A stretch of DNA of 56,283 nt from Candidatus Poseidoniales archaeon (GTDB lineage: Archaea; Thermoplasmatota; Poseidoniia; Poseidoniales; Poseidoniaceae): the NCBI GenBank assembly GCA_003602605.1, contig QQRW01000028.1:1-56283 (forward strand), given 5' to 3'. A program made the translations under genes and the position numbers. How positions within the stretch are numbered: the first letter of the stretch is position 1; the number at the start of each line of letters is the position of its first letter. The notes beneath the pieces were generated by a model. The model saw only the letters and a program-made list of their open reading frames with translations, did no database searches and was not told the origin of the DNA. Below are positions 3,045-24,154 of this stretch, piece after piece.

Positions 3045-3213
3045 GGGACATTGTCATTGCCGAGCCTCCTTGAACATTCTCCTTGCAAGCGAAGAGATTC
3101 CAACTGCATTTGTCCAACTTTTCAATTCTCTCAACAGTGATGCCGTAAGGTGTTTTCATGACGCTCAAGCGAAAAGACAGTAAATGGAGGTGGGCTTGAT
3201 TGCCTTGAGCCCC

Positions 3214-6200
3214 ATGCTACGCGAGACAGCCCCCCGCCGAACCGCTTTGACCATCTTCCTTGTCCTAATGTTCCTGTTCGCTGATTTACTTCTGCCTCAG
3301 TCCATCGATTTTGAGCAGAATCTTGACGATTCATCACGAATATACTATGTCACTTCAACAGATTCAGTTCTGTCTGACACCTACATTACGGAAGCAAATC
3401 CTTCAAGCAACTACAACTCATCAACCACAGGTGCTCTCGGAACATCAACGAGCGGTTATGAGAGCAGAATTCTTTTTGATTTCGCAATGAATTTTTCCGC
3501 TGCAGATACGATACATTCGGCGACTTTGAACATTGTTTGTGATGTTGTTTCGTTATCACCGGCGACAATGAACATTTATGCGGCATCATCGAATTCATGG
3601 AATTCAAGCACAGTGACATGGTATCAGTCAGACATGGGTATGCCATGGGGCGAAACAGGTGCAGACGGCACAAACGACAGAAGTTCGTGGGAGCCGCCTT
3701 TCAGAGCGATGACCAATGGCACATATTCGCTTAATGTCACTGCGTTCGCACAAGAAGCAGCTTCAAACAATGAGACTCACTTCGGCGTTCTGCTTTCTGG
3801 CCTTGGCTCACACTTCGAGTGCAAAATGTCAGAATCATTCCCGATCACAGACCGTCCTGAATTGGTCATGGTGACCTCTTCAAACGCAGCCGGAAACGGT
3901 GGCTCTGTCACATCAAACTTTGCTACTGATGGAATGCCATTGATGACGAATGGCCTCATCTTAGCGGCCGATACAGCTCCAACTTTGTCCTATGAGTCTC
4001 TCGTCGGAACACACGTGGACTTCCAACTTTCACTTGATTCTGCTTTCAAAGATTACAATGATTTAGATTGGTATTATTCAACGATTACGGACAGTTTCTC
4101 GACGACAAGTTCCAGCGGGACATATACCATTCCATCGTCCGATCGTTTCGATAACGGAACTCGTGTATTCTACCGGGTTCGCAGCATTGATACGACGGAC
4201 ACGCTCAGTGAATGGTCGACAACCGAAAGTTTCCTTCTGCCATCTCACACCGTGACCGATAACGGCGATGGTACGGCAAGTATCGAAGTCACCCGAAATC
4301 AGTTGGGCGATATCGGTACATTCATTGAAGACTCGTACTCAAACGAGCTGAGCAAGAATACCAAATATGGTTCAGATAGTATACTTGAAACCAGCGTTAC
4401 TTCGAATAAGGAGTCTCTCATCCATCTTCGAATGGATTTGAGCCTTCTTGGGCTACCATCAAATGCAACCATCATCGATGCTCAAGTGAACTTGACTCGT
4501 GATTCTTCATCCAATGACCCGATGCTTTCGATGCACGAAATGGAGTCGACACCATGGGTTGAATCAGAGTTGACATGGAACCGTGAGTCAAATGCAAACA
4601 GTTGGTCGGATGGAGGGCGTGTCTATTCATCCGTTGCTTCTGCGACTGGGTTTAACGGTACGCAAACCAGTGATGATTACGGGTTTGCCTTCACCGATGT
4701 TGCCCAGTCTTGGCTTGAAAGTGGCGATTCCAGTGCTTCCGAGTTTTTGATTACGGCACGTGGTAAGGACGAAGCATACTCGACAACAGGCACCAAGAGT
4801 ATCTCGTTTTTCAGTACTGAAGCATCTATTGAAGACGACCAACCCTATGTTTACATCCACTATGGCTTGAACACTGGCAATCAACTCTCTACAGTTGTAC
4901 TCACCGGGCCGGCTGAAGATGCTGCAGTATGGAATCAATCCGGCCATAACTTCACTGCAAATCTCACCCCTTCCATAACATGGACTCCGTCGGCTTCCAA
5001 CGGTGAAATGCTCTTGCAGATGGCGACCGATGAACAATTCAGAAATGTGGTTTTGACATCCAATACGGGCATTGAAAACGACTTCTCCCCCTCCGACGGT
5101 ATTCTCAACATGACGGGTGAAAACACTCTCACTGCAGGAAATATGTATTTCTGGAGGATGGCATACTTGGATTCTGACGGAAGGTATGGGCCATGGTCTA
5201 CCTCAAACTTCTTGGTGAGTTCACTCGAGAGTACATGGCTTGGTGGTGAACGCTCAGAATTTAGGATGAAGCACGGTAACGGTACGACGGATGGCTTGTA
5301 CCCTGAATGTCTCGATACGTACATTGACAGTGGCACTCCGAACCAAAATTACGATGATGAGTCAAGGCTTCTCGTCTCTTACAACACCTATCCCATTGAG
5401 GCAATGGCTTTGCTGAATTGCAATTTGCGTTCCAATCTTCTGCCAGCTGGCTACGCTGTTGAATCAGCACAACTCTCGATGGTTATCGCAAGTACCCCAT
5501 CGAATTCACCACGGGTCGCCGTTTGGGAAAACACCCAAAGCAATTGGACCGATAGCGGCGCAACTTGGAATTCTTACGATGGCACGAACTCTTGGACCAC
5601 CGCAGGAGCCAAAGGTTCCGAGCGTTCCTCACTGCTCGACTCAATTCAACTCGATTCATCGTATTCCAATGGTGACCGAATTTCTTGGAACGTAACATTA
5701 GGCGTTCAAAACGCAATGCGGCAAAACAGCAGTGCAGACTTCATGATTGGAATACTTGGAGTTGGCTCGGGTTCGAACCGTGAAGTCCAGCTTTATCCTG
5801 GATTTGCAGCGGATGTACGCAAACCGGAATTGACCTTCGTTTATGTTCCAGGTTCAAATGTTGTCCCGAATAATCCATCTCCAGTTTCGCCGCTCAACGG
5901 TTCTTGGTCGATGGGCACCGGCGTTGACCAGACTCCAATCAAGCGACCAACGCTGGAATGGTCCTTTGGGAACGCAGTTGGTGTTGCCGGTTGGGCTGTA
6001 CAACTCGATACATCTGATTCCTTCGATTCAGCATCTCTTCTAACGCGCACTTCATGGAACGACGGTGGTTTTGACTCAACCAACTTCACTTACACTCCGA
6101 CCTCTGATTTGGACGATGGTGCGACATGGTACTGGCGAGTTCGTGCGATCTCCGCAACCAACCAAATTGGTAACTGGTCGAACATCTTCACCTTCTCCGT

Positions 6201-9200
6201 GCCTGACCTTACCACTTGGCAAACCTGTGCTGATGGCTCGTGTGCATCTGTTGAATTGCATCACAGAGAGGCTATGCCTGAATTGAATTTGCCGAATTTT
6301 GTCGACACCTATGTCATACAGTCTGGTTCTGGCTCATCCAGTACTTACGATACCTCGAATCAACTGAAAGTTGGTGCAACAAGCAACAATGTGCAAGCAC
6401 TCTCCCTTCTTCGAATCCCATTGAATTCTCTTCCACAGCCAACGAACGCTCGGGTAACGGGTGCAGAATTGAATTTGTATTCTGAGTTCTCATCAGCTGT
6501 CGGCGAACCAATTGCGGTCAGGCCAGTGCTCCAAGCGTGGAATACTTCGGCGAATGGCCTTACGTATGACGGCGTGAACAACTGGTCACAAGCTGGAGGC
6601 CGTGACCTTGGTACCGACCTTGGCGCGTATGTTGACCTGCAAGATTCGATTGCCTCGGGATGGATGAATTGGGATGTCAGTGAAGCCGTTCAAGCAGCAC
6701 TGGATGCCGGATCATCTACGCTTTCATTAGCTATTTATGCTTCAAACGACATTACTTCGTACTCCAACGGACCAAATGTGGTGACCTTTACTTCGACGGA
6801 TGGGACATCCTCTCAGCATCCTTGGCTGAACCTTACATGGTCGAACGGTACAGGATCTGTTCCAGCAACACCCGGCGTAAACGTAGGTCCTGCGAACGAT
6901 TCGGTATCATGGGATTCAAGTTCGCATGCATTGCTTGCAGATGAAACGCCTCTCTTCTCATGGAATCTCCCATCATCTGTTGCTGCAGACGCATGGCGAA
7001 TACACATATTTGCAGACTCTACTGATGATATGGCGGGTCGATACACTTTCGATTCACGTGATGACCCAGACCTGTTCGATTTGCCAAACAAGACGTTTCA
7101 ACCGACTTCCCCAGTTGACTACTCTCCTACGGTTCGATGGACAGTTCAACCGATTCATCTCGGTATGATTGGCCCTCAAAGCACCTCCACTCTTTTCTAC
7201 GTGCCAGAGGTTGATTCAGCAGAAGTTGACGCAACACACGCATGGGTTGCTCTTCAAGAAGGCGCGATGGTCGATGAGGAAGGATACCCAATGATTACAT
7301 CGGACACAACACTTGACGGTGGTAATATATTCAACAATAACGGAGCTTCTTCGGCTCTGCTTGTGGGCCGTAGCCCGTCGAACAGCCTCCTTCGGACCAG
7401 TTCTCTTATCGAAATTGACTTCTCATCGTTACCATTACCTGCAGTTTACGAAATTAACAATGCGACCTTGACACTCACTGCATTTTCTGGAAGCGGTGAA
7501 GTGTTTGTGACCGTTTCAGAAATGATCACGAACTGGAATGAATCATCGAGTTGGGCTTATCCAGGTAACAATTCAACCTCATGGGTCGGAGCAGGTGCAT
7601 ACCAGTCCGCCGACTCCATGGTTCCCGAGACACGCGGCTTTTGGATGAATGAAACAGCAGATTTCGAAATCAACGTTACTTCAATGCTCCAACATGCTGT
7701 TGAACGGGGTCAAGAGAGCCTGAACATTCTTTTGCAAGCGGAAGACGCTTTCGGAACCGTTGCTGGAACATACTACATCGCTAGCAGCGAAAACTCAGTC
7801 ATTGACGATCGTCCAAAACTCACGATTGGATACGAACTCACATCACCATGGACTCCAACAAGTCCTACAAACCTCGAACCCTTTGATGGATCCACACTTT
7901 GGAACCTTTCCTCTGCGTTACCAGCTGGAACAGAAACGGTTGAAAGCAATTGGACTTCATCGGATTCAAATCAAACGCAATGGGTTCTCTGCGGTGCATT
8001 CAATCCGAGAATGACAGTAGGCCTTGAATGCTACAATTCCACAGCACTCTCCTTTGATACAGATCTCGACATAACTTGGGATGCACAAAATCTCTCTGTT
8101 TTCATCGAAGGTCTTGAACAGGCTGATGAATGGAAGTATTGGCGAGTTCGTGGTGACCAGGACGGCCGGATTGGCCATTGGTCAACTGTGCATAAGTTCC
8201 GCATTCCTGACGTGAAGCAGACTGATGCTTCTTCTGATGGACTCGGAAATTACTCAGTTACCCTCTCACGCGGCTCACTCTTTAGCGATACTGGCCTCCT
8301 TCCAGAAGTTCCTGATGCTGAAATATCATCTTCTGCCACAACACCTCTTGGTTTATCGAACCAACTGAATCTCGGAACTTCTGCATCGGGCACTGGTGAA
8401 AGTCAAGTTCTGCTCGAATTCGATTTGAGTTCACTTCCATGGCCTGCTGCTATAACACCAACCTCTATGCTTCTCAGTTTGTACCGAACCAGCGTGACTG
8501 GTACTTCAGCAACCACTGTGTCAGCACATGCTTGTTCATCGTTCGTTGAAGCTACCGTTGACTGGAGCACGAGCGGCCCGTGTTCGAACAGTGAAATAAC
8601 TCGTTCGACTCTCACTTTGAGCCCTGCTTCTGGTTGGGCTTCTTGGGATCTGACAAGTTTAGCGCAGAGCAACATTGCCAACGGGAATCTCACCATGACC
8701 ATCCTGCTGAAGTCAGTTGGTGCACCTGCGACAAATCATGCCTTCTACTCGTCAGACGGGAGTAATACGCTTCTAAGACCGAAGCTCGTTATCGATTATG
8801 TGGACAACGTCAACGGCGTATTGCCACCTGCTCAACCCGCTCTCAGCACGCCTCAAGATGGTTCAGTACTGTACAATGTGTCTGGCTCAGTACTCGAATC
8901 GAACGATCGTCCAGTACTCGTGTGGTCTCCAGTATCTGGTGCTACTGGCTATATTCTTACCATTGCGAACGAAACAGGTGTTGTCAAATACAATTCATTG
9001 GATTCCTCTGCGATAACCGGGACAACCTTCCGATTTGCCAACTCACTTCCGAATGGTGAAGTGTTTACATGGTGGGTGCAAGCTATTAATCAATCGATAC
9101 CGGGGCCTTCATCATCACGCTGGACCTTCGCTATCGGCGCTCCAGACCATGTTGATAACGGTGATTTGACTTTCACATACACCTTCCAAACAGGCAGTGA

Positions 9201-12200
9201 AGTCTCACAGTTTGGACATACGAACATTCGAGAAACACATCTTAACGAGGCTGAACCATCAACGAACTTTGGTGATTCGAGCCGTGTTGAACTTGGTACT
9301 GGCTTTGGTCCAAACTCTGGGATGCAATCTCATCTTACCTTTGCTCTAGATAACGGACAAGTTCCACTTGCTGGGCATTCAAACATCCATTCTGCAAGCG
9401 CAGGATTCTACATTGATTCGTGGACTGAAACCGGTGGCGCAACTGAGATGACATTCAGCGTTCACCGAATTATTAACTCGCAGTGGGCACAATCTTCGTC
9501 AACTTGGAATGCGTCTTCGAGTTCAACTTCAGGCGCTTGGGGTGCACCTGGAATGCAGGCTGGTGTTGATTATGATGCCACGCCAATCTCTACGTTTGTT
9601 GAGACGAACATGAATGAGGACCGATGGATTTGGTTTGACATTGGTGTGGACGGTATGCTCATAGATAACGACAATTCTTGGATTATCATTGGAACTCCAA
9701 ATCAGGGAACCCTGATGGCAGAGTTCTACTCTAGCGAGTATTCAGTTTCCGACAAGCGTCCTAAGATTCTCCTTAATCACACGGATGTAACGACAATCTC
9801 GGTTTCTCCGACTTCACCAACGACGGATGCAGACACGAGTGTTTCCTTCTCGAACGTTGTATACGACCACCTTAACATGGCAATCGGTGCTCCAATCGTA
9901 TGGAGCGCAAGCAACGGGTCTATCACTCAATCTGGCGTATTTACTCCATATGCTACAGGTCAGCACACCGTCACTGCTTGCTTTGGTATCATATGTACCA
10001 GCGAAACAGTAACGGTCACACCCGGTGCGCCAGTTGAACTGGTTGTATCGCCAGCGACTGCAACAATTACGGCAGATCAATCCTTGCAAATCGTGGCATA
10101 TGTGGTCGATCAGTTTGGTAACACCGTACCTGGTCAGACCATTGCCTACCTCCCAAGCAACGGTAGCATGGACTCCTCCACTGAAGGTTTGTTCTTACCG
10201 GTAAGTGCAGGTCTTCAATCCGTAGATGTTACTTGGAACGGTGCTATGATGACGCCCCAGACCATCTCCGTTTCAATTCTTGTTGAGACTGGTCTTCCGT
10301 CCTATTTCGTTCTCGAGGGTTGTCAAGGCACTGTTCCTGCTGGAATTCTTTGTGCCATCACGCACACGCTTTACGACCAATTTGGAAACGAAATTCTTGA
10401 TGTTTCAGAGGCAGGAGACTTCACTTGGACTGCCTCAAATGGTAACTACAGCGAAACAACCGGTGAGTACTTCCCAGACCACGTTGGTGATTGGTACCTC
10501 AACTTGACATCCACTTCCGGTGCGCACGGCTCATTGCTGATCACTGTTGGCCATGGCCAGATGGCAAGTCTTGAATTGGCAGCTTCGTCCACATCGATTA
10601 CTGCTGATGAACAAGTATGGATTAACACGACTCGAATTGATATCCGTGGAAACCGATTACCAGTTCTTCTTGAACTCGATAACTGGATAACTCCTCAAGA
10701 CAGTCAATTGTTACCGGGCGCTCCAGCAATCTGGTCGCCAACCTCTCGTGGTGCCAAGATTATTCAGGCCACGTACGAAACGATTTCTTCTGAAATTACA
10801 ATCACTGTAGAGGAAGGTGCCATTGTGTCGCTTATGCTTCTTGTCGACAATGATGTAGCAACTTGGGAACATTTCGACATCACCGCTGACGACCTTTTCG
10901 ATGTAAAGGTCAAGGCATACGATCAAAAGGACAACCGTTGGATTGTATCTGCTAATTGGAGTTTAACTCACCCTGAATGGACCTCACAATCTGCTCTAGA
11001 GCAGTTGACGGGAGACGAGACAACATTTGTCCCATACCTCGCTTCAACTGAACGTTACACTATTACTGCCGCATACTACGATGGAACTACTTTCCATGAG
11101 GTGAGTATCAACGTAACAGTTTCTCACGGTGATTTGAATTCAGTCACGCTAACTGCGACTGGTAGTGATGGCCTTGCAAACACAGTCTTTGACATGACTT
11201 CTGATGAATACATCGACTTTACATCGGCTCTCGCCGATTTGGACATGAATCCAATCGACTCTTCCATTCTTGAATGGTACCTCAAGGACACCGATACCGG
11301 TGTCTACACCGTCATCACCGACGAATTGGTTGCAAACAACATGCGTTGGGAGGCTTCGGCGGTTGGCAATTGGTCGATTTCGGCCTCTGCAATCAGTGAT
11401 TCTGGATACAATATCAGTGATACTGTTACTCTTTCAGTCGTTCATGGCAAGGCAGTTAGTGTGATTGCAGTTCTTGATACCACGACCCAAACAGCAGGTG
11501 AAGAAATCACCATGGTTGTCACCGGAACAGATTCAGATGGCAACACATTCCCACAAAATGTAGAATGGTTGGAGAACGACGTAACAGTTGAGAACATTAC
11601 TGCTGGGGAAAGCGAAGGGACATATGTCTACTTAGCGACCACCGCTGGTGAACATACGCTGAAGTACACGACAGGGTCCGCTGACTCATCGCTTGTAATC
11701 ACTGTTGAAGCACAGCGTATCGTTGATTCTTTGGATATCCAAATATCCTCACAATCAGTTGACCAACTGTCGAACTTTACGGTTACTGTCAAAGCCTTTG
11801 ATATGTATCTTAATCAAATCGAAGTCCCACCGAGTGCGGATGTAGACGCCACTGGTCGAGCTGAAGTAGTGCAGCAAGGACCTGGCGTTTGGAACGTTAT
11901 CACGCTTGATGATGGCACAGTAACGGTGACGATTACCGCAGGCAAAGTGTTAGAAGAAAGAAATATCGAAGTTGAAGGCAATATTGGTGGATTCTTCAAG
12001 GCAGGCGGGCCACTTTACTATGTTGGAGCAGTTCTTCTTGGAATTGTTAGCATCGTCGTTGTTGGCTTATTGATCTCCATGCTTCGTGGTGGCGATTCTG
12101 GTTACGATGACGACGACGATGAGTACGACGATTATGATGACGACGATTCAAGCGCTCCTCTAAGTGCTGCCTCTGGCCCATCAGGTCCTGCTCCGGCCAT

Positions 12201-12399
12201 TGGTCCAACAGGTCCTGCGCCAGGCCCATCAGGCCCCGCTCCTGAACAGAAGGAAGTGCCAGAAATAGTGCAAGAAGACACATCATGGCAAGTCGACCAT
12301 CGTGTCGATGAAGATGGAACGGAATGGGCACAGGATGAAAATGGCACATGGTGGTATCGCCAAGAAGGCGACACCGATTGGGGCGAATGGAAGGATTGA
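3214..12399 (+). CDS. Giant modular surface protein (3,061 aa): seven DNRLRE-like/Fn3-like repeats plus Ig-like stalk
   Basis: The start chosen (MLRETAPRRTALTIF) gives a basic N-terminus plus a ~20-residue hydrophobic signal segment. Seven modules follow, opening near nt 3373, 4328, 5314, 6304, 7303, 8315 and 9233, that is every ~920-1010 nt. Each has a beta-sandwich of the DNRLRE/CBM96 kind, with a D-T/S-Y-x opening and lines such as SLLRIPLNSLP and SSWxxxG. Most are followed by an Fn3-like domain with a WYWRVRA-type strand. From ~9,784 come about eight Ig-like domains (SPATATITADQSLQIVAYV pattern). One membrane helix follows at nt ~12,000-12,080, then an Asp-rich tail, a Pro-Gly-Ala segment and a Trp-rich end (GTEWAQDENGTWWYRQEG). 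N-x-S/T sequons are frequent. Adhesion, polysaccharide binding or a cell-surface fibre are plausible roles. No catalytic residues are recognised. An in-frame ATG at 3184 is less likely because a GGAGGTG lies downstream of it. Confidence 0.85.
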   Translation: MLRETAPRRTALTIFLVLMFLFADLLLPQSIDFEQNLDDSSRIYYVTSTDSVLSDTYITEANPSSNYNSSTTGALGTSTSGYESRILFDFAMNFSAADTIHSATLNIVCDVVSLSPATMNIYAASSNSWNSSTVTWYQSDMGMPWGETGADGTNDRSSWEPPFRAMTNGTYSLNVTAFAQEAASNNETHFGVLLSGLGSHFECKMSESFPITDRPELVMVTSSNAAGNGGSVTSNFATDGMPLMTNGLILAADTAPTLSYESLVGTHVDFQLSLDSAFKDYNDLDWYYSTITDSFSTTSSSGTYTIPSSDRFDNGTRVFYRVRSIDTTDTLSEWSTTESFLLPSHTVTDNGDGTASIEVTRNQLGDIGTFIEDSYSNELSKNTKYGSDSILETSVTSNKESLIHLRMDLSLLGLPSNATIIDAQVNLTRDSSSNDPMLSMHEMESTPWVESELTWNRESNANSWSDGGRVYSSVASATGFNGTQTSDDYGFAFTDVAQSWLESGDSSASEFLITARGKDEAYSTTGTKSISFFSTEASIEDDQPYVYIHYGLNTGNQLSTVVLTGPAEDAAVWNQSGHNFTANLTPSITWTPSASNGEMLLQMATDEQFRNVVLTSNTGIENDFSPSDGILNMTGENTLTAGNMYFWRMAYLDSDGRYGPWSTSNFLVSSLESTWLGGERSEFRMKHGNGTTDGLYPECLDTYIDSGTPNQNYDDESRLLVSYNTYPIEAMALLNCNLRSNLLPAGYAVESAQLSMVIASTPSNSPRVAVWENTQSNWTDSGATWNSYDGTNSWTTAGAKGSERSSLLDSIQLDSSYSNGDRISWNVTLGVQNAMRQNSSADFMIGILGVGSGSNREVQLYPGFAADVRKPELTFVYVPGSNVVPNNPSPVSPLNGSWSMGTGVDQTPIKRPTLEWSFGNAVGVAGWAVQLDTSDSFDSASLLTRTSWNDGGFDSTNFTYTPTSDLDDGATWYWRVRAISATNQIGNWSNIFTFSVPDLTTWQTCADGSCASVELHHREAMPELNLPNFVDTYVIQSGSGSSSTYDTSNQLKVGATSNNVQALSLLRIPLNSLPQPTNARVTGAELNLYSEFSSAVGEPIAVRPVLQAWNTSANGLTYDGVNNWSQAGGRDLGTDLGAYVDLQDSIASGWMNWDVSEAVQAALDAGSSTLSLAIYASNDITSYSNGPNVVTFTSTDGTSSQHPWLNLTWSNGTGSVPATPGVNVGPANDSVSWDSSSHALLADETPLFSWNLPSSVAADAWRIHIFADSTDDMAGRYTFDSRDDPDLFDLPNKTFQPTSPVDYSPTVRWTVQPIHLGMIGPQSTSTLFYVPEVDSAEVDATHAWVALQEGAMVDEEGYPMITSDTTLDGGNIFNNNGASSALLVGRSPSNSLLRTSSLIEIDFSSLPLPAVYEINNATLTLTAFSGSGEVFVTVSEMITNWNESSSWAYPGNNSTSWVGAGAYQSADSMVPETRGFWMNETADFEINVTSMLQHAVERGQESLNILLQAEDAFGTVAGTYYIASSENSVIDDRPKLTIGYELTSPWTPTSPTNLEPFDGSTLWNLSSALPAGTETVESNWTSSDSNQTQWVLCGAFNPRMTVGLECYNSTALSFDTDLDITWDAQNLSVFIEGLEQADEWKYWRVRGDQDGRIGHWSTVHKFRIPDVKQTDASSDGLGNYSVTLSRGSLFSDTGLLPEVPDAEISSSATTPLGLSNQLNLGTSASGTGESQVLLEFDLSSLPWPAAITPTSMLLSLYRTSVTGTSATTVSAHACSSFVEATVDWSTSGPCSNSEITRSTLTLSPASGWASWDLTSLAQSNIANGNLTMTILLKSVGAPATNHAFYSSDGSNTLLRPKLVIDYVDNVNGVLPPAQPALSTPQDGSVLYNVSGSVLESNDRPVLVWSPVSGATGYILTIANETGVVKYNSLDSSAITGTTFRFANSLPNGEVFTWWVQAINQSIPGPSSSRWTFAIGAPDHVDNGDLTFTYTFQTGSEVSQFGHTNIRETHLNEAEPSTNFGDSSRVELGTGFGPNSGMQSHLTFALDNGQVPLAGHSNIHSASAGFYIDSWTETGGATEMTFSVHRIINSQWAQSSSTWNASSSSTSGAWGAPGMQAGVDYDATPISTFVETNMNEDRWIWFDIGVDGMLIDNDNSWIIIGTPNQGTLMAEFYSSEYSVSDKRPKILLNHTDVTTISVSPTSPTTDADTSVSFSNVVYDHLNMAIGAPIVWSASNGSITQSGVFTPYATGQHTVTACFGIICTSETVTVTPGAPVELVVSPATATITADQSLQIVAYVVDQFGNTVPGQTIAYLPSNGSMDSSTEGLFLPVSAGLQSVDVTWNGAMMTPQTISVSILVETGLPSYFVLEGCQGTVPAGILCAITHTLYDQFGNEILDVSEAGDFTWTASNGNYSETTGEYFPDHVGDWYLNLTSTSGAHGSLLITVGHGQMASLELAASSTSITADEQVWINTTRIDIRGNRLPVLLELDNWITPQDSQLLPGAPAIWSPTSRGAKIIQATYETISSEITITVEEGAIVSLMLLVDNDVATWEHFDITADDLFDVKVKAYDQKDNRWIVSANWSLTHPEWTSQSALEQLTGDETTFVPYLASTERYTITAAYYDGTTFHEVSINVTVSHGDLNSVTLTATGSDGLANTVFDMTSDEYIDFTSALADLDMNPIDSSILEWYLKDTDTGVYTVITDELVANNMRWEASAVGNWSISASAISDSGYNISDTVTLSVVHGKAVSVIAVLDTTTQTAGEEITMVVTGTDSDGNTFPQNVEWLENDVTVENITAGESEGTYVYLATTAGEHTLKYTTGSADSSLVITVEAQRIVDSLDIQISSQSVDQLSNFTVTVKAFDMYLNQIEVPPSADVDATGRAEVVQQGPGVWNVITLDDGTVTVTITAGKVLEERNIEVEGNIGGFFKAGGPLYYVGAVLLGIVSIVVVGLLISMLRGGDSGYDDDDDEYDDYDDDDSSAPLSAASGPSGPAPAIGPTGPAPGPSGPAPEQKEVPEIVQEDTSWQVDHRVDEDGTEWAQDENGTWWYRQEGDTDWGEWKD

Positions 12400-12440
12400 A
12401 CAGCGAATCATTGATACACATTGACGAGGAAGTTGAGCAC

Positions 12441-15143
12441 ATGAAAAATACGAGTGACTACAAATCCATCATCTTGAGTTGTGTTTGTGTACTGCTCTTT
12501 TCCTTCCATGGTTTTTCCATCTCTGAACCTCAGTTTCCATCCCTTGAAGAACAAAGTATTGTCTCCAATCAAGGCGGTGTCCAACCCGTTCGTGTAGAGG
12601 TCTCAGCAGAATTGGTATCGATCACAGCAGATGAAGTAGTCATGCTTACAGCACAACTGTACGATAATCTCAACAACATCGTGACTGGAGAGGTTGTCTG
12701 GAGTTGCGCAAACGGTTCAATTACCGAGGATGGAATTTTCTATCCGTGGTCTTCTGGTCTCATTCAAATTGACGCTACGCATAATGGCTTAGTTGGCTCG
12801 ATCAACATCACCGTGGCACCCGGTGTAGGGCAATCCCTTAGGATTACAAGTTTGACCGCACATGCGCTCCTACCAGTAACGCTCACAGCCGAGGTTTTGG
12901 ATGCGCGTGGAAATGCCCAACCTGCATCCAATGTTGTCTGGACCATTGATGGTTCATACGCTGGAGTAGGTTCACCGACTTGGACTGCGCAAGACATTGG
13001 TGAATATCCGATTCGCGCACGGCTCCATCAAATGGAACATGTCGAGACAATCGAGGTCTTGGCAGGAGCGCCTCACGAGTTCATCTTTGACGAGGGCATG
13101 CAAGTTCGTAGCGGCTCAACACTCTTGATGACTCCTCGTTTGGTCGATGTGAACGGCTTTGAAATGAACATAACTACCGCAGGCAACCGAGTATGGGAGG
13201 TGGAGAACGGCACGATTATTCCTTCAGGATGGTTTACTGCAACCCAACCTGGGCTCTGGGCAGTCAATGTTTCGGCAGGCAACATTACCGGTACAGGAAT
13301 GATTCGAGTTGTTCCAGCAGATGCCACAATCTCGCAAGTAACGGTGCTCTCGGAAGATGGGCTCGAAAATCCACAATTTACTGCAGGTGTGGCCTACGAG
13401 CTTGTAGCAATGCGCACCGACTCGCTCGGCTATACAGGTACAATAACACCGCCTTTGGCTAATTTCACCGTATCAAGTGGAGGTCTTTCAAACATCAGTG
13501 GAGCCGTCTACTGGACGCCTGGCTCAGTAGGTATGCATGAAGTACGAGTGGACGATGACGGAGTAGTTTCGACGTTGTCTGTCGAAGTCGTACACGGTCC
13601 AGCTATCGATGCTGAATTGACGCTTACTTCTCCGGACTTTTCAGCCGGTGGTCAGAGTACCATTGAATTCATCGCTTCCGATGTGGTTGGTAATGAATGG
13701 CTCGTAAACGGTTCGATGACACTCGTGAATGGCAACAGTTCACTGTACACTGTCTCCACAGGATACGCTGTAGTGACCCCGGAAGAAACGCTCATATGGA
13801 GAATTGAAGGGAACTGGTATGATGTTTCGACAGGTACACGGTTTGAACCGGTTTTCCAAATGCAGTCCACACCAGGGGAACTCGCTTTTATCCTCCTCAA
13901 CGGCGAGGGCACAATACTACCTGCAGACGCCTTACTGGCTCTCAATCCCCTTTTCTATGATGCGTACTCAAATCAACTTGATGAAATAGCATTGAACTGG
14001 ACCGTTGATGGCATCGATTCCACCGTCGACATTCTACTTTCTGACATGCACTGGATACCTACCACTGTTGGAGGGCATGAGATTCGAGCAAATGCCGGAG
14101 GAGTCTTTGCTACGGTACGATTAACCGTTGTTGCCGGTGATGCTCGAAACCTTGTCACTAATTTTGAGGATGGTCTTACTGTTCAAGCAGGTGTAGCCAC
14201 TGAATTGTTTATTCAAACCATTGACGCTCACGGAAACTTGGCACCATCGACTGCTGTTCTATCAACGCTTGATGAAGAATTTGGTTCGCTCGTGGCCTCA
14301 TCGTCAGGTGACGGTTACTGGGACTTTACTGGTCGTATGAAGGGCACATATTCGCTTGAGTTGATACAGGACAACGCCACCCATATCCTCCCTCTCACAA
14401 TTGAATCCGGTGCACCTGTTCGACTGCTCTCAACCATGGAAATTGAGAACATCGCACAAGGCGATACTGTCCTTCTACGCGTTGAATCAGTCGATGTTTA
14501 CGGAAATCCTGTGGATGTTGTTCCTGAAAACACAACGGTTAGTTGCACTTCGGGTTCTTCGAAGCATGTGACTTCGGACACTTGGGAATTGGATATCTCT
14601 TCCTCCGGAAACGATCGCTCTTGCAACATTCTGTGGAATGGTTTACTCTCGCAAAATTATTTTGATGTTGAGTCTGTTTTGCTCGGCGGAGCAGTTGGTT
14701 CGACCAATACGGCCATGGGTCTTGGTATCTTTTTCCTATCACTGATTTTGGTTACTCTTGTGGTATTGGTTCGTAAAGCCAACCAAGAAGAAGTTGACTG
14801 GACCGATGATACATTTGACGATTACGATGAATACGATTCCGCAGAGGATGAGGATGGTGACAAATTGTATGATGCAACATCAAAATCCGATGACGGCGGT
14901 GAAACTGTTGCCAAAGGCAATGAAGAAGATGAATTGACCAGTGAAAGTACTGATGTCAAATCCTCAATGCCAACATTATCCGATGAAAACCGCAAGGCTC
15001 TCGCCCAAAAAGCAGCAGAAGTCGGAGTTATGCAAGCCATTACCGGGACGAAACAAGGATCGAGCGGTTGGTACGTGGATGTAAGCGGTGAAATCCAATA
15101 CTGGAACGTCGGTGACGATGGTTCATGGACTCGGGTTGAATGA
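12441..15143 (+). CDS. Surface protein with Ig-like repeats and C-terminal membrane anchor, 900 aa
   Basis: The start at 12441 (MKNTSDYKSIILS) is followed by a hydrophobic signal segment ending near SISEP, and a GAGGA lies upstream. Upstream in-frame ATGs overlap the end of the giant gene and give no signal peptide at the N-terminus. The body is about eight Ig-like domains of the invasin/Big type, each with a V-D/Y-x-x-G-N strand turn, closely resembling the stalk of the preceding giant protein. A membrane helix (FFLSLILVTLVVLV) is followed by a highly acidic cytosolic tail. It ends with ENRKALAQKAAEVG and a Trp/Tyr-rich closure (SGWYVDVSGEIQYW). It starts 41 nt after the giant gene and is probably co-transcribed with it. 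It may be a partner or paralogue that lost the DNRLRE modules. Confidence 0.85.
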   Translation: MKNTSDYKSIILSCVCVLLFSFHGFSISEPQFPSLEEQSIVSNQGGVQPVRVEVSAELVSITADEVVMLTAQLYDNLNNIVTGEVVWSCANGSITEDGIFYPWSSGLIQIDATHNGLVGSINITVAPGVGQSLRITSLTAHALLPVTLTAEVLDARGNAQPASNVVWTIDGSYAGVGSPTWTAQDIGEYPIRARLHQMEHVETIEVLAGAPHEFIFDEGMQVRSGSTLLMTPRLVDVNGFEMNITTAGNRVWEVENGTIIPSGWFTATQPGLWAVNVSAGNITGTGMIRVVPADATISQVTVLSEDGLENPQFTAGVAYELVAMRTDSLGYTGTITPPLANFTVSSGGLSNISGAVYWTPGSVGMHEVRVDDDGVVSTLSVEVVHGPAIDAELTLTSPDFSAGGQSTIEFIASDVVGNEWLVNGSMTLVNGNSSLYTVSTGYAVVTPEETLIWRIEGNWYDVSTGTRFEPVFQMQSTPGELAFILLNGEGTILPADALLALNPLFYDAYSNQLDEIALNWTVDGIDSTVDILLSDMHWIPTTVGGHEIRANAGGVFATVRLTVVAGDARNLVTNFEDGLTVQAGVATELFIQTIDAHGNLAPSTAVLSTLDEEFGSLVASSSGDGYWDFTGRMKGTYSLELIQDNATHILPLTIESGAPVRLLSTMEIENIAQGDTVLLRVESVDVYGNPVDVVPENTTVSCTSGSSKHVTSDTWELDISSSGNDRSCNILWNGLLSQNYFDVESVLLGGAVGSTNTAMGLGIFFLSLILVTLVVLVRKANQEEVDWTDDTFDDYDEYDSAEDEDGDKLYDATSKSDDGGETVAKGNEEDELTSESTDVKSSMPTLSDENRKALAQKAAEVGVMQAITGTKQGSSGWYVDVSGEIQYWNVGDDGSWTRVE

Positions 15144-15295: not shown

Positions 15296-16921
15296 TTATT
15301 CTTCGCTTTGTGACTCAAATGCAAGGAAGAACTCATCGATATCGATGAATCCGTTTTCATCCATGTCAGCGTTATGGAAAATACATCGGACTTCATCTGA
15401 TGTGTACTCAAAACCTAGGGCTTTCAACGCGTTTTGGAACTCTCGTAGGGTGAGATGGTTCTTGCCACCATAGTCCGCCGCATGGAAAGCAGCAAGCCGA
15501 CGCTCATGTTCGGCAACAGTCGTGAATTGGAATTGCTTTCGAAACGACTGAATCGGAGTTGTTTGGGACACAGCGTGTTTCTTACCATAGAGGTAGTATG
15601 TGGCTGCACCTGAAATAATCGCAGCACCACCGCCAATGAACGCCTTTGAGCCGATGAAACTGATCAGCACTGCTCCAGCGAGAATACCCCACATGTGGAT
15701 GTAGGGGTACATTGGAGCCTTGTATTTTGGATCCCAACCGTGCTCTTTACTGGTTCTTCGAAGAATGATAACACAGGAGTTTATCATGATGAAAATCATA
15801 ATTTTAAACCCTGATGCGAGTTTAACTACGTCCTTTAGCGGTACGAACAGAATTGCAAGTCCCATTGCCACTCCAGTGACTATAATCGGCCAGTGAGGGG
15901 TTTCAAACCGCACATTGACTTCTTCGAGAGCTTGCGGCAGTAGGTTATCTCTGGACATCGCAAACAAAAATCGAGAAGATGCCAAGATTCCTGCGAGTGC
16001 CATGGAGATCATTGTGAGAACGGAAAGAATCGCTGCAAAGATTCCAAACTTTGTCCCTGCTACCGTTTCAGCGAAAACGAAGATAGGGTTTTCAACAACT
16101 TTCCCGTCTTGTATCCACCATTCGCCAGGAATTGCCGCCATCATGAGGTAAGCAATTGCGGAGTAAAGCACAGTTGCAATGAGCAGTGAGAGCATAATCC
16201 CAGCGGGTAGATTTCGCTCAGGATTCTTCACTTCTCCGCCAATCGCAGCAACTTTGGTGACACCAGCATAAGCTACAAACACAAACGCAGCAGCTTCGGC
16301 CAGCGACCATACACTCACATCAAAAGCTTCTGTAAACGGTCCTTTGGCATCGAAATCATCGACAAACAGTGCGGCGATACAGGTAAACACCAGAAGTCCT
16401 ACCGTGGAGATGACAATCGGAGTTTGAATGGCTTTCACTTTCGAGACTCCGAAAATGTTGACCATCGTGATGAGAACCAGAGCACTCATCGAGAGTACCA
16501 TAATGCTTATCTCGACATCAAAATATGTAGTGACGGCAATGAGGTAAGCAGAGAATCCAATCAGTGCAAAGGCCGATTTGAGTAGAAACGATGCCCATAA
16601 TCCAAGGCCGCTGATGGTTCCAATAAGTGGTCCATATGTACGTTCTAAGTAAACATAGGAACCACCGCTGGATGGCATTCCTGATGACAATTCTGATTTT
16701 GATAATGCACCAGGAAGAACAACAGAAGCAGCGAGAAGGTAGGCAAGCCATATTCCAGAACCCATAATTTCAGCAGCGAATGTTGGTGTGACGAAAATAC
16801 CGGGCAACATTGCTGAGAGTGAGATAATAACAACACCAGCAAGGCCTGTGGTGCGCTTCAAAGTATTCTTCAACTCATCAGCTGCATTTTCGATAATGTT
16901 TTTTGGTGTCAAGTCCGACAT
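15296..16921 (-). CDS. APC-family amino-acid permease with C-terminal EF-hand domain, 541 aa
   Basis: The first ~440 residues are a 12-helix APC-superfamily transporter: TM1 with TGLAGVVIISLSAMLPG, GGSYVYLERTYGP after TM2, AYAGVTKVAAIGGEVKNPER in the TM6 loop and ASSRFLFAMSRD later. The last ~50 residues are cytosolic and form an EF-hand pair. The second loop is canonical (DMDENGFIDIDE, residues 519-530), and the first (DYGGKNHLTLRE) lacks most acidic ligands. The fusion suggests calcium-responsive uptake. The ATG at 16921 is preceded by GGGGAT at a good distance; the in-frame start 24 nt upstream is less likely. It lies downstream of the ring-cleavage dioxygenase genes on the same strand, so the substrate could be an aromatic amino acid or derivative; that last point is inference. 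Confidence 0.9.
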   Translation of the reverse strand: MSDLTPKNIIENAADELKNTLKRTTGLAGVVIISLSAMLPGIFVTPTFAAEIMGSGIWLAYLLAASVVLPGALSKSELSSGMPSSGGSYVYLERTYGPLIGTISGLGLWASFLLKSAFALIGFSAYLIAVTTYFDVEISIMVLSMSALVLITMVNIFGVSKVKAIQTPIVISTVGLLVFTCIAALFVDDFDAKGPFTEAFDVSVWSLAEAAAFVFVAYAGVTKVAAIGGEVKNPERNLPAGIMLSLLIATVLYSAIAYLMMAAIPGEWWIQDGKVVENPIFVFAETVAGTKFGIFAAILSVLTMISMALAGILASSRFLFAMSRDNLLPQALEEVNVRFETPHWPIIVTGVAMGLAILFVPLKDVVKLASGFKIMIFIMINSCVIILRRTSKEHGWDPKYKAPMYPYIHMWGILAGAVLISFIGSKAFIGGGAAIISGAATYYLYGKKHAVSQTTPIQSFRKQFQFTTVAEHERRLAAFHAADYGGKNHLTLREFQNALKALGFEYTSDEVRCIFHNADMDENGFIDIDEFFLAFESQSEE

Positions 16922-17032
16922 TGTAAATCCCCGCTTTATGACCATTTAGGGCCAGTTATTAGCCTGCAAGTGGCGATAGAACTTATTGTCTTGTATCGAT
17001 TTAAGTGACATTGTGTCGGATTCCGGTAATTT

Positions 17033-18457
17033 TTAGTTATCCGGAGCTTTTGCAATCACTTTCATTTCTACTGCGATAGGTGTGGGTAAGGCACGGATTG
17101 CCAAAGTTGTACGTGTAGGTCCAACTTTGCCCAATGTCTCTGCCCAAACTTCGTTGTATCCTTTGAAATCACGGTCCATATCGACGAGGAATGATGTGAC
17201 ATCGAGTACATCGTCAATGGAGCCACCCGCTTCTTCAAGAATGCGGGTGATGTTTTGGACTACTGCATGCGTTTGCGCCTTGATATCGTAATCGAGGGGT
17301 TGGCCATTTGCGTCATGTATCGGTCCGCCAGGTATGGAATTGGTACCAGGTTGTCGTGGGCCGACTCCTGAGAGGTACAAGAGGTCACCAACTCGTCGAG
17401 CATGTGGGTAGGCGCCAACTGGTTTGGGTGCAGCATTGCTGTTGACCGAGTCTTTACTTTCAGTTGGTTCCCACAGCGCGGGGCCGTTTGATGTCGTGGA
17501 GTTCGTCGACGCTGGTTCACTCACCATCTCGTTTTCTTCACCTTGGGAATCGAGAACATTTCTTTCCCCCGAGAAATATTCGACATCGTCTTCATCGTAT
17601 TCTTTGTCACCAGCTCCTGATGCAGCAGGGTCGAGATGAACCACAGCGCCTCCAGCACCGTGGATTGCTTCGTATGCCAGAACTTCGCCTGTGAGATTGT
17701 TCCTGTTTTGATTCATTCCAGAAAGCCACCACATTGGCTTGAAAGCAACCACCTTGTTGACCCGTATTTGCTGGTGTATTGTTCGAGAAAGTTGGCCAAC
17801 ATCTTCGAGCCGACCTTCGCCCAAGAACTCCAGAATCTTACGGTTCCATTCATCGTCTTTTAGAGAGTGAATTTTGTCGTCTTTTGGGTCAATTGGTTTT
17901 GTGAACATCCTGTTCGATAGAGACATTGCGGTAACTGCTACTGCTTTTCGTCCAGTCGCCTTGACGACATCCATGCATGCTTTGGCAAGAACAGTCGTCT
18001 CAGCACGGTTCGCATATACATTGGATGAGACGATGACGGCAGGAATTGCATTGTCGGGATTGAGTAATTTGAGTGCGACAACAGAGCCAACATCGATTGG
18101 GAATCCATGGTATGCCACAGTACGACTCTTGAGTCCACGGTTTTCATTGGCTTGATTCCATGCATGCGCAAAATCTTCGTCGATGTTGAACGAATAGGGT
18201 ATAGACCCCAAGTCATGGAAGTCATTGTCGACCATGACCCATTCTGGATTAGGATCAGCAATGATTTGATGACCTATGATGCTAGGCCACGTGGTCGAGT
18301 AAATGATGAGTAGGTCTGCATCACTGTCTTTGATTCGCTGAGCAGCCTCTCCAAAAGCGTCTCGAAGGCGACCCCAACCCTCGTTTTGGTCTGCTGCCAA
18401 AACGGTATGCGGGTGGACAGGTACGATGTATGATCCTACTAATTTACCATCACTCAT
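17033..18457 (-). CDS. Class III extradiol dioxygenase alpha-like subunit fused to RidA/2-aminomuconate deaminase-like domain, 474 aa
   Basis: Residues ~1-262 have the LigB fold of the AmnA-type alpha subunit. The position of the second iron-binding His of catalytic subunits reads STTWP instead of SPHW, and the Glu ligand region is absent, so this half should be non-catalytic and structural. An acidic Ser/Asp/Glu-rich linker follows (~263-345). Residues ~348-474 form a complete RidA (YjgF/UK114) domain with GAYPHARRVGDLLYLSGVG, GYNEVWAE, GPTRTTLAIRALP and IAVEMKVIA; the substrate-binding Arg is in GPTRTT. The long YPHxRRxGD opening is typical of 2-aminomuconate deaminases (AmnD/NbaF). Its ATG overlaps the TGA of the upstream catalytic subunit gene (ATGA), so the two are translationally coupled. 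Joining ring cleavage and deamination in one polypeptide is unusual. Confidence 0.88.
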   Translation of the reverse strand: MSDGKLVGSYIVPVHPHTVLAADQNEGWGRLRDAFGEAAQRIKDSDADLLIIYSTTWPSIIGHQIIADPNPEWVMVDNDFHDLGSIPYSFNIDEDFAHAWNQANENRGLKSRTVAYHGFPIDVGSVVALKLLNPDNAIPAVIVSSNVYANRAETTVLAKACMDVVKATGRKAVAVTAMSLSNRMFTKPIDPKDDKIHSLKDDEWNRKILEFLGEGRLEDVGQLSRTIHQQIRVNKVVAFKPMWWLSGMNQNRNNLTGEVLAYEAIHGAGGAVVHLDPAASGAGDKEYDEDDVEYFSGERNVLDSQGEENEMVSEPASTNSTTSNGPALWEPTESKDSVNSNAAPKPVGAYPHARRVGDLLYLSGVGPRQPGTNSIPGGPIHDANGQPLDYDIKAQTHAVVQNITRILEEAGGSIDDVLDVTSFLVDMDRDFKGYNEVWAETLGKVGPTRTTLAIRALPTPIAVEMKVIAKAPDN

Positions 18458-19356
18458 TCGCTCGCCTCCTGATGGTTTCGTTCGGGCCATTCAACGATTG
18501 CATTCCCTGTTCCAATGATGGTACCGTAACCGTGCAGAATCCCAGGGTAGTTGGGGATGTCAAGCGTTGAAAGGAGCCAAGACAAACCGCCTCCGTCGCT
18601 TTCTGCGATTGCTTGTTCGGTAAACTCTGGCATTTCGTCAAGTATTCGCTGCGATTGTCCAGTCCGGAAGTATTCGATCATTCGCATGTCCCATAGATGC
18701 ATTGCATGGCTGGTAATATGTTCCTTGCTCATGTCTTCAGGGATGGCTGATTCCGTAGTGAAATGTCGGTGTGAAAGTGAATTACTTGCGAGTACAACCA
18801 CTTTTTTCCCACTGGCGAGGATTGCTTCACGTGTGACTCGACCCAGTTCCATCATCATCTCTTGCATAACTTCGACGGAATAGTAATCTCTCGAACGGTT
18901 GCTTGACAAAACCACCAGCGGCTTATCCCATTGCGGATTGAACATGTGTCCGGTCGTTATTGTTCCATAGTCCACTCGGAAGTCTGGGTTTTCCATCATT
19001 TTGACGGCGAGCCCAGCGTCCGCAGCTCGGTCATGTATTTGGCGAGCCAAGTCAACATCGATGTTCAAGTCGTAGTGGTATCGGAATAAGTTAGGGAAGA
19101 CTGGGTCGACTGAGAGACTCTTGAAACTGGGCAGACCAAGAAAGTGTGTACCGATGTAGGTCTGCCAATGCGGAGAAAGCAAAACAATTGCATCGTAATC
19201 AACATCGGCCAGCGATTCACGCAACCGCTCATATCCCCAACGTAACTGCTCCCAACCGCCTTCCGCAGTTGGCTCATTTTGCTCGGGATTCTCTGCATAA
19301 ACCAAATGCGGTGGATGCGGTGCTAAGCAGCCTGCGACAATTTCGCCCTTCGACAT
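18454..19356 (-). CDS. Class III extradiol ring-cleavage dioxygenase, catalytic beta-like subunit (2-aminophenol 1,6-dioxygenase-like)
   Basis: This is a 300-aa LigB-family protein. The expected non-haem Fe(II) ligands are present: H14 in APHPPHL, H63 in LLSPHWQTY and E252 in AIAESDGGGLSW. The spacing equals that remembered for AmnB of 2-aminophenol 1,6-dioxygenase (H13, H62, E251) shifted by one. Length and subunit pairing with the downstream alpha-like gene also match that enzyme. It would cleave an o-aminophenol-type ring next to the hydroxyl to give an aminomuconate semialdehyde. Start MSKGEIVAG at 19356; an ATG 15 nt upstream is possible. Other catechol-type substrates cannot be ruled out. 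The gene is divergent from a small membrane-protein gene. Confidence 0.88.
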   Translation of the reverse strand: MSKGEIVAGCLAPHPPHLVYAENPEQNEPTAEGGWEQLRWGYERLRESLADVDYDAIVLLSPHWQTYIGTHFLGLPSFKSLSVDPVFPNLFRYHYDLNIDVDLARQIHDRAADAGLAVKMMENPDFRVDYGTITTGHMFNPQWDKPLVVLSSNRSRDYYSVEVMQEMMMELGRVTREAILASGKKVVVLASNSLSHRHFTTESAIPEDMSKEHITSHAMHLWDMRMIEYFRTGQSQRILDEMPEFTEQAIAESDGGGLSWLLSTLDIPNYPGILHGYGTIIGTGNAIVEWPERNHQEASE

Positions 19357-19456
19357 GAACAACCCATGCAACGGGGGATTATATCGGCATCGGAGAATGC
19401 CGCTTCTCTCGTTCTTTCAACCGAACCCTCAAACAACACGGGCATTTGGGGGTGAT

Positions 19457-21575: not shown

Positions 21576-23036
21576 TTAGTTAGGAGATTCGGGGTTCTTG
21601 ACGCAAACATTGGTCATTTCTGAAAAGAATTCCATCGACCATTTGCCGCCTTCTCTCCCTACGCCAGAATTCTTAACTCCGCCGAATGGTGTCCTAAGAT
21701 CTCTGTGCAACCAGGTGTTTACCCAGACGATTCCAGTTTCGATTTTCGTTGCAAAGTTTCGACCACGTTCAAGATCCTTGGTCCAAACAGAACCTGCAAG
21801 CCCGTATTCGGAATGATTCGCCATCTCAATGGCCTGTTTTTCCGAATCAAAAGTATGAATCGTAACCATTGGACCAAAGATTTCCTCCGTAGCGCATCGG
21901 GATGTGTAGGATAATCCAGATACAACGGTTGGTCGCAAAAATGCTCCAACACCATCAGGGCCCGTGAAACCAGTCATCGCCCGGGTTCCACCCGTCAACA
22001 CTGTTCCCCCTTCAGCGAGCCCCAACTCAATGTACGACTCGACTTTTTCGAGATGCTCAGGGGAGATCACTGACCCCATGACCGTCTCATCTAAAGACGG
22101 ATTACCAATTTTGATTGAATTGACTTTTTCGATAAACTGCTCGGTGAATTCTTCTGCTATTGCCGAGTCGACGATTATTCGAGAACCACAGAGGCACACC
22201 TGCCCCGAATTGGTGAAGGCGGCCCGTACTGCACCGTCGACGGCCAGTTTAAGGTCGGCATCTTTGAGCACGATGGTTGCGTTTTTGCCACCCAGTTCCA
22301 ATGATAATTTCTTGAACATAGGTGCAGCAGTTCGTGCCACTATTCGACCGGTTGCTGTGCCGCCGGTAAAGGAAATTCCCTTGATGCCTGGTGCTTCGAG
22401 GATGGACTGACCAACCTCTGGTCCAAGCCCGTGAACGAGGTTAAACACACCTGCAGGTAAGTCCAATTCATCCAAAGTTTCCGCCAATATATTTGCTGTG
22501 AGCGGTGTGATTTCACTCGGTTTAGCAACAATTGTATTGCCCATCAGAAGTGCGGGTGCAACCTTCCAACTGAGGAGATAGAGAGGCAGATTCCATGGTG
22601 TGATGAGGCCAACGGTTCCAACCGGCGAACGGTGGACATAGTTCATTGCATCAGGCATTTCAAACGTCATTTCAGTTTGTTCCCTGCTGAAACCAGCAAA
22701 GAACCGAAAGTTACTGACCGAACGTGAAGCATCCACGCGACGAGCAAGTGAAATTGGTTTCCCAGTATCCATCGATTCAGTTTGTGCAATGTGTTCATGT
22801 TTCTTTTCGAGAGCGTCTGCGATGCGGTCGAGCCAATCTGCTCGTTCAAGCATTGAAAGAGCACCCCATTCAGATTGTGCTGAGTGCGCAGCATCGACTG
22901 CCATCTGTACGTCGCTCACTTTTGAACGTGGAATCGTTGCAATACACTTTGCAGTTGCTGGGTTGTAATCCTCGAGTGTCTCCCCATCCAATGCGGCTTG
23001 AAACACTCCACCGATGTAGTTCTTGATTTCGAGCAT
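21576..23036 (-). CDS. Aldehyde dehydrogenase, 2-aminomuconate-6-semialdehyde dehydrogenase-like, 486 aa
   Basis: This is a full-length NAD(P)-dependent ALDH. It carries VGLITPWNLPLY for the oxyanion Asn region, the cofactor turn FTGGTATGR, the general base Glu in LELGGKNA, the nucleophile Cys in NSGQVCLCGSR, and EEIFGPMV. The LHRDLRTPFGGVKNSGVGREGG ending (positions near the 3' end) and overall style resemble the ALDH8/AmnC group that oxidises 2-aminomuconate or 2-hydroxymuconate semialdehyde. The start at 23036 (MLEIKNYIGG) follows the asparaginase stop by two bases. The product of the nearby LigB dioxygenase pair would be a natural substrate. Succinate-semialdehyde or betaine-aldehyde type activity is the alternative. 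Confidence 0.88.
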   Translation of the reverse strand: MLEIKNYIGGVFQAALDGETLEDYNPATAKCIATIPRSKVSDVQMAVDAAHSAQSEWGALSMLERADWLDRIADALEKKHEHIAQTESMDTGKPISLARRVDASRSVSNFRFFAGFSREQTEMTFEMPDAMNYVHRSPVGTVGLITPWNLPLYLLSWKVAPALLMGNTIVAKPSEITPLTANILAETLDELDLPAGVFNLVHGLGPEVGQSILEAPGIKGISFTGGTATGRIVARTAAPMFKKLSLELGGKNATIVLKDADLKLAVDGAVRAAFTNSGQVCLCGSRIIVDSAIAEEFTEQFIEKVNSIKIGNPSLDETVMGSVISPEHLEKVESYIELGLAEGGTVLTGGTRAMTGFTGPDGVGAFLRPTVVSGLSYTSRCATEEIFGPMVTIHTFDSEKQAIEMANHSEYGLAGSVWTKDLERGRNFATKIETGIVWVNTWLHRDLRTPFGGVKNSGVGREGGKWSMEFFSEMTNVCVKNPESPN

Positions 23037-23038
23037 GC

Positions 23039-24154
23039 TCACATCTCCACATCGTACAGCCATCTGTCTTGATCTGGGTCCCATTCATCCCAAGTCGGTA
23101 ACTTTTCCAGATGAGGAAGGTAGTGTTCAGGTACAATGCCCGGGACAATGAATGCTTTTTGTCTGTGCAGAGGGTAAGGGTTACGTAGGTTTATTCCGAG
23201 TACACCAAGCACTGCGCGGGCAACATACCACATTGCTTGGGAGTTCCAGCCATGTGCGATTTTAACTACAATTCCGAGTCCTTTTGGGTAATCTGGGTGT
23301 TCAATAGCTAGTCCAAGTAATCCATCAGCGCCCTCTTTAGCGATGACTTTTCCTTCTCCCGCCTTGAGAACAGTTGAGTCGAGGCGATTGAAACCTCCGA
23401 CAAGGTCTGGATGACGAACCATCGCCTCCCAAATCCAATCTTTGTCCTTGTCTCGCACAAGCCCAGCATAGATTTGAGCTAATTCAGCAACAGTGTTGGA
23501 CACCGTTGGTAGCCCACAACCGTCTTTTGCAATTCGAAGAGGTTTCCATTCTTCACCGAGATAGGTTCTTAATTCAGCCATGTAGGCATCGAATACCTCG
23601 TGTGTAGGAAGAGTGTACCCTGCACGATTCCAGCCCTTTTTCCGGCAACCAAGTAAGATTGCTGCGTGTTCTCCTGAACAAGTGTGATACCACCTGCGGG
23701 GCCTTCTGACTTGACGTCCAAATTGGATTAATGGTACATCGAGTGGAGTGAGCATGAGTGGCCATTCCTCCTGCGCTAACAGCGATTGAGCGGCAGCAAC
23801 GTGTTCCGTGTCACCGTTGTGAGATGCCACCGCTATCGCTTTCTGTTCCCAACTGGTGTCGGCCAGTTCTTCAGTGAACGCTTTGAGCATGAAGGGTTTC
23901 ATCATTGAACGCCCGTAGCACAATACATTTCCTCCAAAGGAATGGATGACTTCATCACCGTGTGACCAAGCGATTGCTCCATGAATGGTCGTTTCAGATA
24001 CGCCATTTCTTCGATAATCGACCAATGGCTCCCAAGCCACTTCTCGGCCCGTAGGAATTCCCTCTATTTTCTCGCCGAGAGGTGATTCCGGGTAGAGTGA
24101 ACTGCCTGGCTTGCCGGGCTCAACTGCGGATGGTGTACTGTGGTCGATTGCCAT
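23039..24154 (-). CDS. L-asparaginase II family amidohydrolase, 371 aa
   Basis: It resembles the thermolabile asparaginase II family (PF06089 type): E-x-x-HxG(A/C) near the N-terminus (ETTIHGAIAW), the SMMKPF motif, ASHNGDTEHV, CSGEHAAIL and KDGCGLPT, then a conserved EGADGLLG. The family hydrolyses L-asparagine, and members may use other amides. The ATG at 24154 has GGAG about ten bases upstream, and this start lies 4 nt after the luciferase-like gene; a TTG six codons upstream is rejected. The tight spacing to the monooxygenase and ALDH genes suggests a shared catabolic operon, perhaps releasing ammonia from an amide intermediate. The real substrate is unknown. Confidence 0.88.
   Translation of the reverse strand: MAIDHSTPSAVEPGKPGSSLYPESPLGEKIEGIPTGREVAWEPLVDYRRNGVSETTIHGAIAWSHGDEVIHSFGGNVLCYGRSMMKPFMLKAFTEELADTSWEQKAIAVASHNGDTEHVAAAQSLLAQEEWPLMLTPLDVPLIQFGRQVRRPRRWYHTCSGEHAAILLGCRKKGWNRAGYTLPTHEVFDAYMAELRTYLGEEWKPLRIAKDGCGLPTVSNTVAELAQIYAGLVRDKDKDWIWEAMVRHPDLVGGFNRLDSTVLKAGEGKVIAKEGADGLLGLAIEHPDYPKGLGIVVKIAHGWNSQAMWYVARAVLGVLGINLRNPYPLHRQKAFIVPGIVPEHYLPHLEKLPTWDEWDPDQDRWLYDVEM

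Follow-up and report, generated by a model that had tools for sequence, protein, structure and literature searches.

A Poseidoniales amino acid permease with a C-terminal EF-hand pair, a candidate calcium sensor

Introduction

Eukaryotes possess transporters that are gated by EF-hands fused to them. The DNA analyzed here (the window) is a stretch of 56,283 nucleotides from Candidatus Poseidoniales archaeon, contig QQRW01000028.1, and it encodes a permease for which an initial annotation proposed a cytosolic EF-hand pair at the C-terminus. This raises the question of whether the fusion is real and shared with other archaea, and whether calcium might control uptake by the transporter. The literature searched yielded no published description of such a permease-EF-hand fusion. 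EF-hand fusions to transporters are not new as such; the novelty lies in this particular combination, its lineage and its breadth, which had no counterpart in that literature. A study from 2022 described gene modules with calcium-binding domains in a subgroup of the Poseidoniales; the permease is not named in the text examined (PMC9258230).

Results

The permease gene is present as a single copy in the window's genome. Its open reading frame (Table 1) is intact, with an ATG start codon at 16921 and the stop codon at 15296-15298; a second in-frame ATG is located at 16945. Pfam assigned residues 33-425 to AA_permease_2 (E=3.6e-40, 138.6 bits versus a cut-off of 27), a domain of the APC superfamily. 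The CAT-type APC permease GkApcT (PDB 5oqt and 6f34) is homologous to the window permease over the full core. Residues 20-450 aligned to residues 22-458 of 461 of this protein (phmmer, E=5e-31), whose chain stops at the end of the core and carries no EF-hand tail. The TIGR00909 model (2A0306) was matched across its full length with E=5.9e-58, but the score of 196.8 bits stays below the curated cut-off of 556.8 for this amino acid transporter subfamily. GkApcT possesses 12 membrane helices and a cytosolic C-terminus. By homology, the tail that follows residue 450 of the window permease should also lie on the cytosolic side, which supports the proposed location of the EF-hand pair.

Table 1. Features of the permease locus in the window (residue numbers refer to the permease).
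Feature	Position	Strand	Remarks
Permease gene	15296..16921	-	541 amino acids; APC-fold transporter with C-terminal EF-hand pair (open reading frame, Pfam)
APC transporter core, residues 18-448	15578..16870	-	AA_permease_2; phmmer to GkApcT
TM1 residues P40-G41	16799..16804	-	replace G-[ST]-G of other members (alignment)
Linker, residues 449-468	15518..15577	-	short helix predicted at about 456-464; T455-P456 near-invariant (alignment, models)
EF-hand pair, residues 471-536	15314..15511	-	Pfam, PDB profile search, tail model, fold search
EF loop 1, DYGGKNHLTLRE, residues 483-494	15440..15475	-	degenerate (ligand positions 3 and 5); no calcium binding predicted
EF loop 2, DMDENGFIDIDE, residues 519-530	15332..15367	-	canonical, conserved; predicted metal site
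2-Aminophenol 1,6-dioxygenase alpha-like subunit fused to 2-aminomuconate deaminase-like Rid domain	17033..18490	-	neighbour with conserved linkage to permease
2-Aminophenol 1,6-dioxygenase beta subunit	18454..19371	-	phmmer to 8ihg_A, E=1e-105; linkage

The motif G-[ST]-G in the unwound TM1 is usual in the APC superfamily, without being a strict criterion for it. In the alignment it is absent from the clade of the window permease, where TM1 reads ML-PGIF and the P-G is one residue shorter than G-S-G. This form is common to the window permease and the sequences closest to it, both tailed and tail-less. Most other Poseidoniales members have GSG and the outgroups GSG or SSG. The exchange suggests an altered substrate recognition in the window clade. 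A further difference from GkApcT is a Ser in the alignment column of the TM5 Lys. The description as a standard APC transporter thus holds for the AA_permease_2 core and the homology to GkApcT, but not for TM1 of this clade.

In the tail, Pfam detected an EF-hand_7 pair at residues 478-532 (E=2.2e-8, 34.7 bits versus a curated cut-off of 30), which places it in the EF-hand superfamily, as well as EF-hand_1 (E=1.1e-6). The canonical loop of 12 residues, with ligands at positions 1, 3, 5, 9 and 12 and Gly at position 6, is present in loop 2 only. Loop 1 carries Gly at position 3 and Lys at position 5, and the canonical loop reported for this tail was therefore recovered in one half of the pair. 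Among the 46 tailed members, loop 2 retains D1 in 46, D/N3 in 45, N/D5 in 44, G6 in 46 and E12 in 43 sequences. Loop 1 has D1 and E12 in 41/46 each, but mainly G at position 3 and K at position 5. It is conserved within the genus as GGKNHLTLRE, and a near-canonical form persists in a small number of sister-family members. The tail is thus an EF-hand pair with one predicted metal site, located in loop 2.

An AlphaFold model of the tail only (pLDDT 81) displayed the helix-loop-helix pattern of an EF-hand pair. In the PDB, the profile of the tail matched eukaryotic EF-hand chains, among them calmodulin and centrin. A fold search with the tail model retrieved calmodulin and centrin lobes at borderline E values of about 1e-3 (probability 1.00), and the matches include 4zcu, in which the regulatory domain of the human ATP-Mg/Pi carrier is bound to calcium. 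Consequently, the EF-hand pair fold is predicted with good confidence from the tail model and the profile. Fold and sequence profile are shared with the calmodulin and centrin lobes; the differences are that the tail is a single pair on a membrane protein and that one of its loops is degenerate. For the full-length protein the alignment was shallow and the mean pLDDT was 46, with a poor membrane part and the tail as the best-modelled stretch, and thus a contact between tail and core cannot be claimed.

Matches were found in 54 of 60 relatives and, in a sample of 293 genomes from the class, in 241. The extracted relatives fall into two groups, one with the tail and one without, the latter ending shortly past residue 450. 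Of 64 distinct relatives from Poseidoniales (Marine Group II), 46 carry the tail; they come from both families and many assemblies, and two tailed copies lie on one contig of a single-contig chromosome (G061; CM001443). The tail is thus not a one-off of this genome and, together with the Pfam E values, its presence in 46 sequences puts the fusion of an EF-hand pair to an archaeal APC permease far from chance. Beyond the Thermoplasmatota the survey consists of one degenerate-pattern scan, sensitive to close relatives only.

A tree was calculated by a quick method from the transporter core alone, with 74 rows, of which 46 have the EF tail, 18 lack it and 10 are outgroup sequences. The distribution of the tail requires 6 changes on this tree, at least 5 of which are forced by well-supported branches; some long branches are unsure, e.g. 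those of the tail-less L093 and L095. The changes alone cannot separate gain from loss. However, with the outgroup as root the tails are spread over deep branches of both Poseidoniales families, which makes one early gain followed by about five losses the simplest reading. The tail-less genes share the neighbourhood of the tailed genes, flanked by the LigB-RidA gene and, on the opposite side, by a large convergent gene, and are therefore mostly orthologues that lost the tail. This LigB-RidA neighbour and their nesting within tailed clades exclude most of them as distant paralogues. Apparently, the tail was dispensable in about five lineages, which lost it and retained the transporter. Where synonymous sites were unsaturated, the pairwise dN/dS was 0.012-0.17 for the EF region (471-536) and 0.016-0.071 for the core. 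Purifying selection thus acts on the tail with about the same strength as on the core.

The nearest permeases outside the order, from other Thermoplasmatota, share 33-37% identity with the core, and their open frames comprise about 620-790 amino acids. One of them, L091, contains a PTS_EIIA_2 domain at residues 500-617 (Pfam, E=4.3e-11). The C-termini of L083-L090 are visibly similar to that of L091, which is the one among these that was scanned with Pfam. In permeases of the L091 type an accessory domain is fused at the same place as the tail of the window permease, namely an EIIA-like domain within an extension of about 180 amino acids instead of an EF-hand pair. Since the nearest outgroup permeases have either PTS_EIIA_2 or a different long domain there, the C-terminus of these permeases looks like a slot for regulatory modules, occupied by the EF-hand pair in Poseidoniales. 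Tandem universal-stress domains, suspected by eye at the C-terminus of L082, were supported by neither Pfam nor PDB searches.

The initial annotation had placed the permease beside genes of aromatic catabolism, and these were identified as the alpha and beta subunits of a 2-aminophenol 1,6-dioxygenase with a Rid fusion (Table 1). In the fusion protein the alpha-like part resembles 3vsg_A (E=9.5e-37) and the Rid part is closest to the 2-aminomuconate deaminase 6izh_A (E=6.4e-26). It combines two steps of one pathway; its alpha-type subunit has TTWP where the beta subunit has SPHW and is likely non-catalytic. Encoded at 21576-23084 is a 2-hydroxymuconic semialdehyde-type aldehyde dehydrogenase that scores under the cut-off of that family. 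The dioxygenase, Rid and aldehyde dehydrogenase genes match three steps in a meta-cleavage route of the aminophenol type. In most of the relatives read, the permease gene is likewise linked to the LigB-RidA gene or to panB, and an aromatic amino compound is therefore a reasonable guess for the substrate. A tryptophan 2,3-dioxygenase is encoded elsewhere in the window's genome; kynureninase, sought as the enzyme completing a route from tryptophan to aminophenol, was not found, the genome being 86% complete. At 3184-12399 and 12348-15143, the window encodes two predicted surface proteins of very large size; their open reading frames as listed overlap by 52 bases. Each has an acidic stretch beyond its C-terminal membrane helix.

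In a phylum-wide sample of 194 genomes, PF13499 pairs occurred in 47 of 48 Poseidoniales genomes versus 6 of 146 others, with 3-13 places per genome within the window's family. The view that such fusions are unusual in archaea accordingly fits the rest of the sampled phylum, whereas within Poseidoniales EF-hand pairs are common and the tail looks ancestral. The window's genome has about ten EF-hand places and two genes of the Na/Ca-exchanger family. Further EF-hand hosts in it are the A-type ATPase subunit I, a multi-pass protein of 656 amino acids and, with a single motif, a GyrA-like protein. The permease may thus belong to a set of several calcium-sensing fusions of this lineage.

Subunit I of the A-type ATP synthase (G000:C34:3-2258; L076, L102) carries its EF-hand pair between its two halves. 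This insertion was observed in 19 genomes of the window's genus including the window's own (relatives L103-L120). It is absent from L121 with 694 amino acids, and other relatives are likewise shorter and lack the EF-hand pair. In the subunit I pair (e.g. DLDDSGLIDCYE and DLDGDGKINLPE) loop 2 is canonical in 19/19 and both loops are canonical in 11/19. The 656-amino-acid membrane protein (G000:C35:59800-63000; L075, L122) belongs to no recognised family and bears its EF-hand pair at the C-terminus. Its pair and that of subunit I are closely alike, with about 50-69% identity, which suggests that the domain was copied from one protein to the other. A single weak motif (DTDNDGIVTREE) is located at the C-terminus of the GyrA-like protein (G000:C30:3086-3166, L081). 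Two EF-hand pairs are also present in an acidic zinc-ribbon membrane protein that several Poseidoniales genomes encode (G000:C33:1438-2193; L072, L074; L066-L069).

Discussion

We consider it somewhat probable that the protein is an APC importer with a cytosolic, calmodulin-lobe-like EF-hand pair as a built-in calcium sensor. The permease would act as a secondary importer of amino acids or aromatic amino compounds. One Ca2+ would be bound by loop 2, possibly in competition with Mg2+, and loop 1 would have a structural role as its partner. Metal binding would then shift the EF pair relative to the cytosolic gate or the linker helix and thereby raise or lower transport. This reading is favoured by the conserved loop 2, the purifying selection on the tail, its probable early gain, the resemblance of the tail model to calmodulin and centrin lobes and to 4zcu, the domains in the same slot of the outgroup permeases, and the Na/Ca-exchanger-family genes and further EF-hand places of the genome. 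The degenerate loop 1 and the loss of the tail from about five lineages that kept the transporter speak against it. We infer calcium regulation of uptake from the comparison of the C-terminal slot and from the analogy with eukaryotic carriers. Like the window permease, the mitochondrial ATP-Mg/Pi carriers (SCaMC) and the aspartate/glutamate carriers are solute transporters with a fused EF-hand sensor. These eukaryotic proteins have the mitochondrial carrier fold, an N-terminal sensor and more EF-hands. Pfam identifies an APC permease and no mitochondrial carrier fold in the protein studied here, so the likeness is one of analogy only.

The main rival explanation, which we hold to be unlikely though serious, is that the EF pair is a constitutive module for folding, membrane anchoring or partner binding, permanently occupied by Mg2+ or Ca2+ and unresponsive to signals. 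The single canonical loop would agree with this, as would the conservation of loop 1 within the genus, which is as for a structural surface, and cytosolic Mg2+ at millimolar concentration could fill the loop. Moreover, we know of no calcium transients in these archaea. Yet position 12 of loop 2 is Glu in 43 of the 46 sequences, a residue typical of Ca2+-selective loops, and the outgroups have a signalling-type domain in the same slot.

That the tail is a local calcium buffer or a localisation tag unrelated to transport activity appears improbable. The lineage does place EF-hands on unrelated proteins as well, but one predicted site per transporter would make a poor buffer, and the tightly conserved TP motif of the linker beside the core suggests a defined geometry. 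Hardly credible, finally, is an artefact of assembly or gene calling that joined two genes, or a vestigial domain. The repeated losses of the tail can be read as decay, and nothing else was found in support. Against it stand the low dN/dS and the uninterrupted frame shared by 46 distinct sequences, which come from many assemblies including a single-contig genome. Thus, neither an absence of the tail from the relatives nor an assembly error, two outcomes that could have counted against the initial annotation, was encountered.

A broader reading of the sensor is that Poseidoniales possess direct calcium signalling, in which EF pairs were repeatedly fused to membrane machines (the permease, the A-type ATPase subunit I and the 656-amino-acid multi-pass protein) and cytosolic calcium would set nutrient uptake and energy conversion jointly. 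We regard this as doubtful and put it forward tentatively. The enrichment of EF-hands makes the question of archaeal calcium signalling testable on soluble, expressible tails, and the orthologues without the tail provide natural controls. If the permease is indeed controlled by calcium, this fusion, order-wide and kept by selection in surface-ocean archaea that rank among the most abundant in the sea, would directly exemplify the regulation of nutrient uptake by calcium in a prokaryote.
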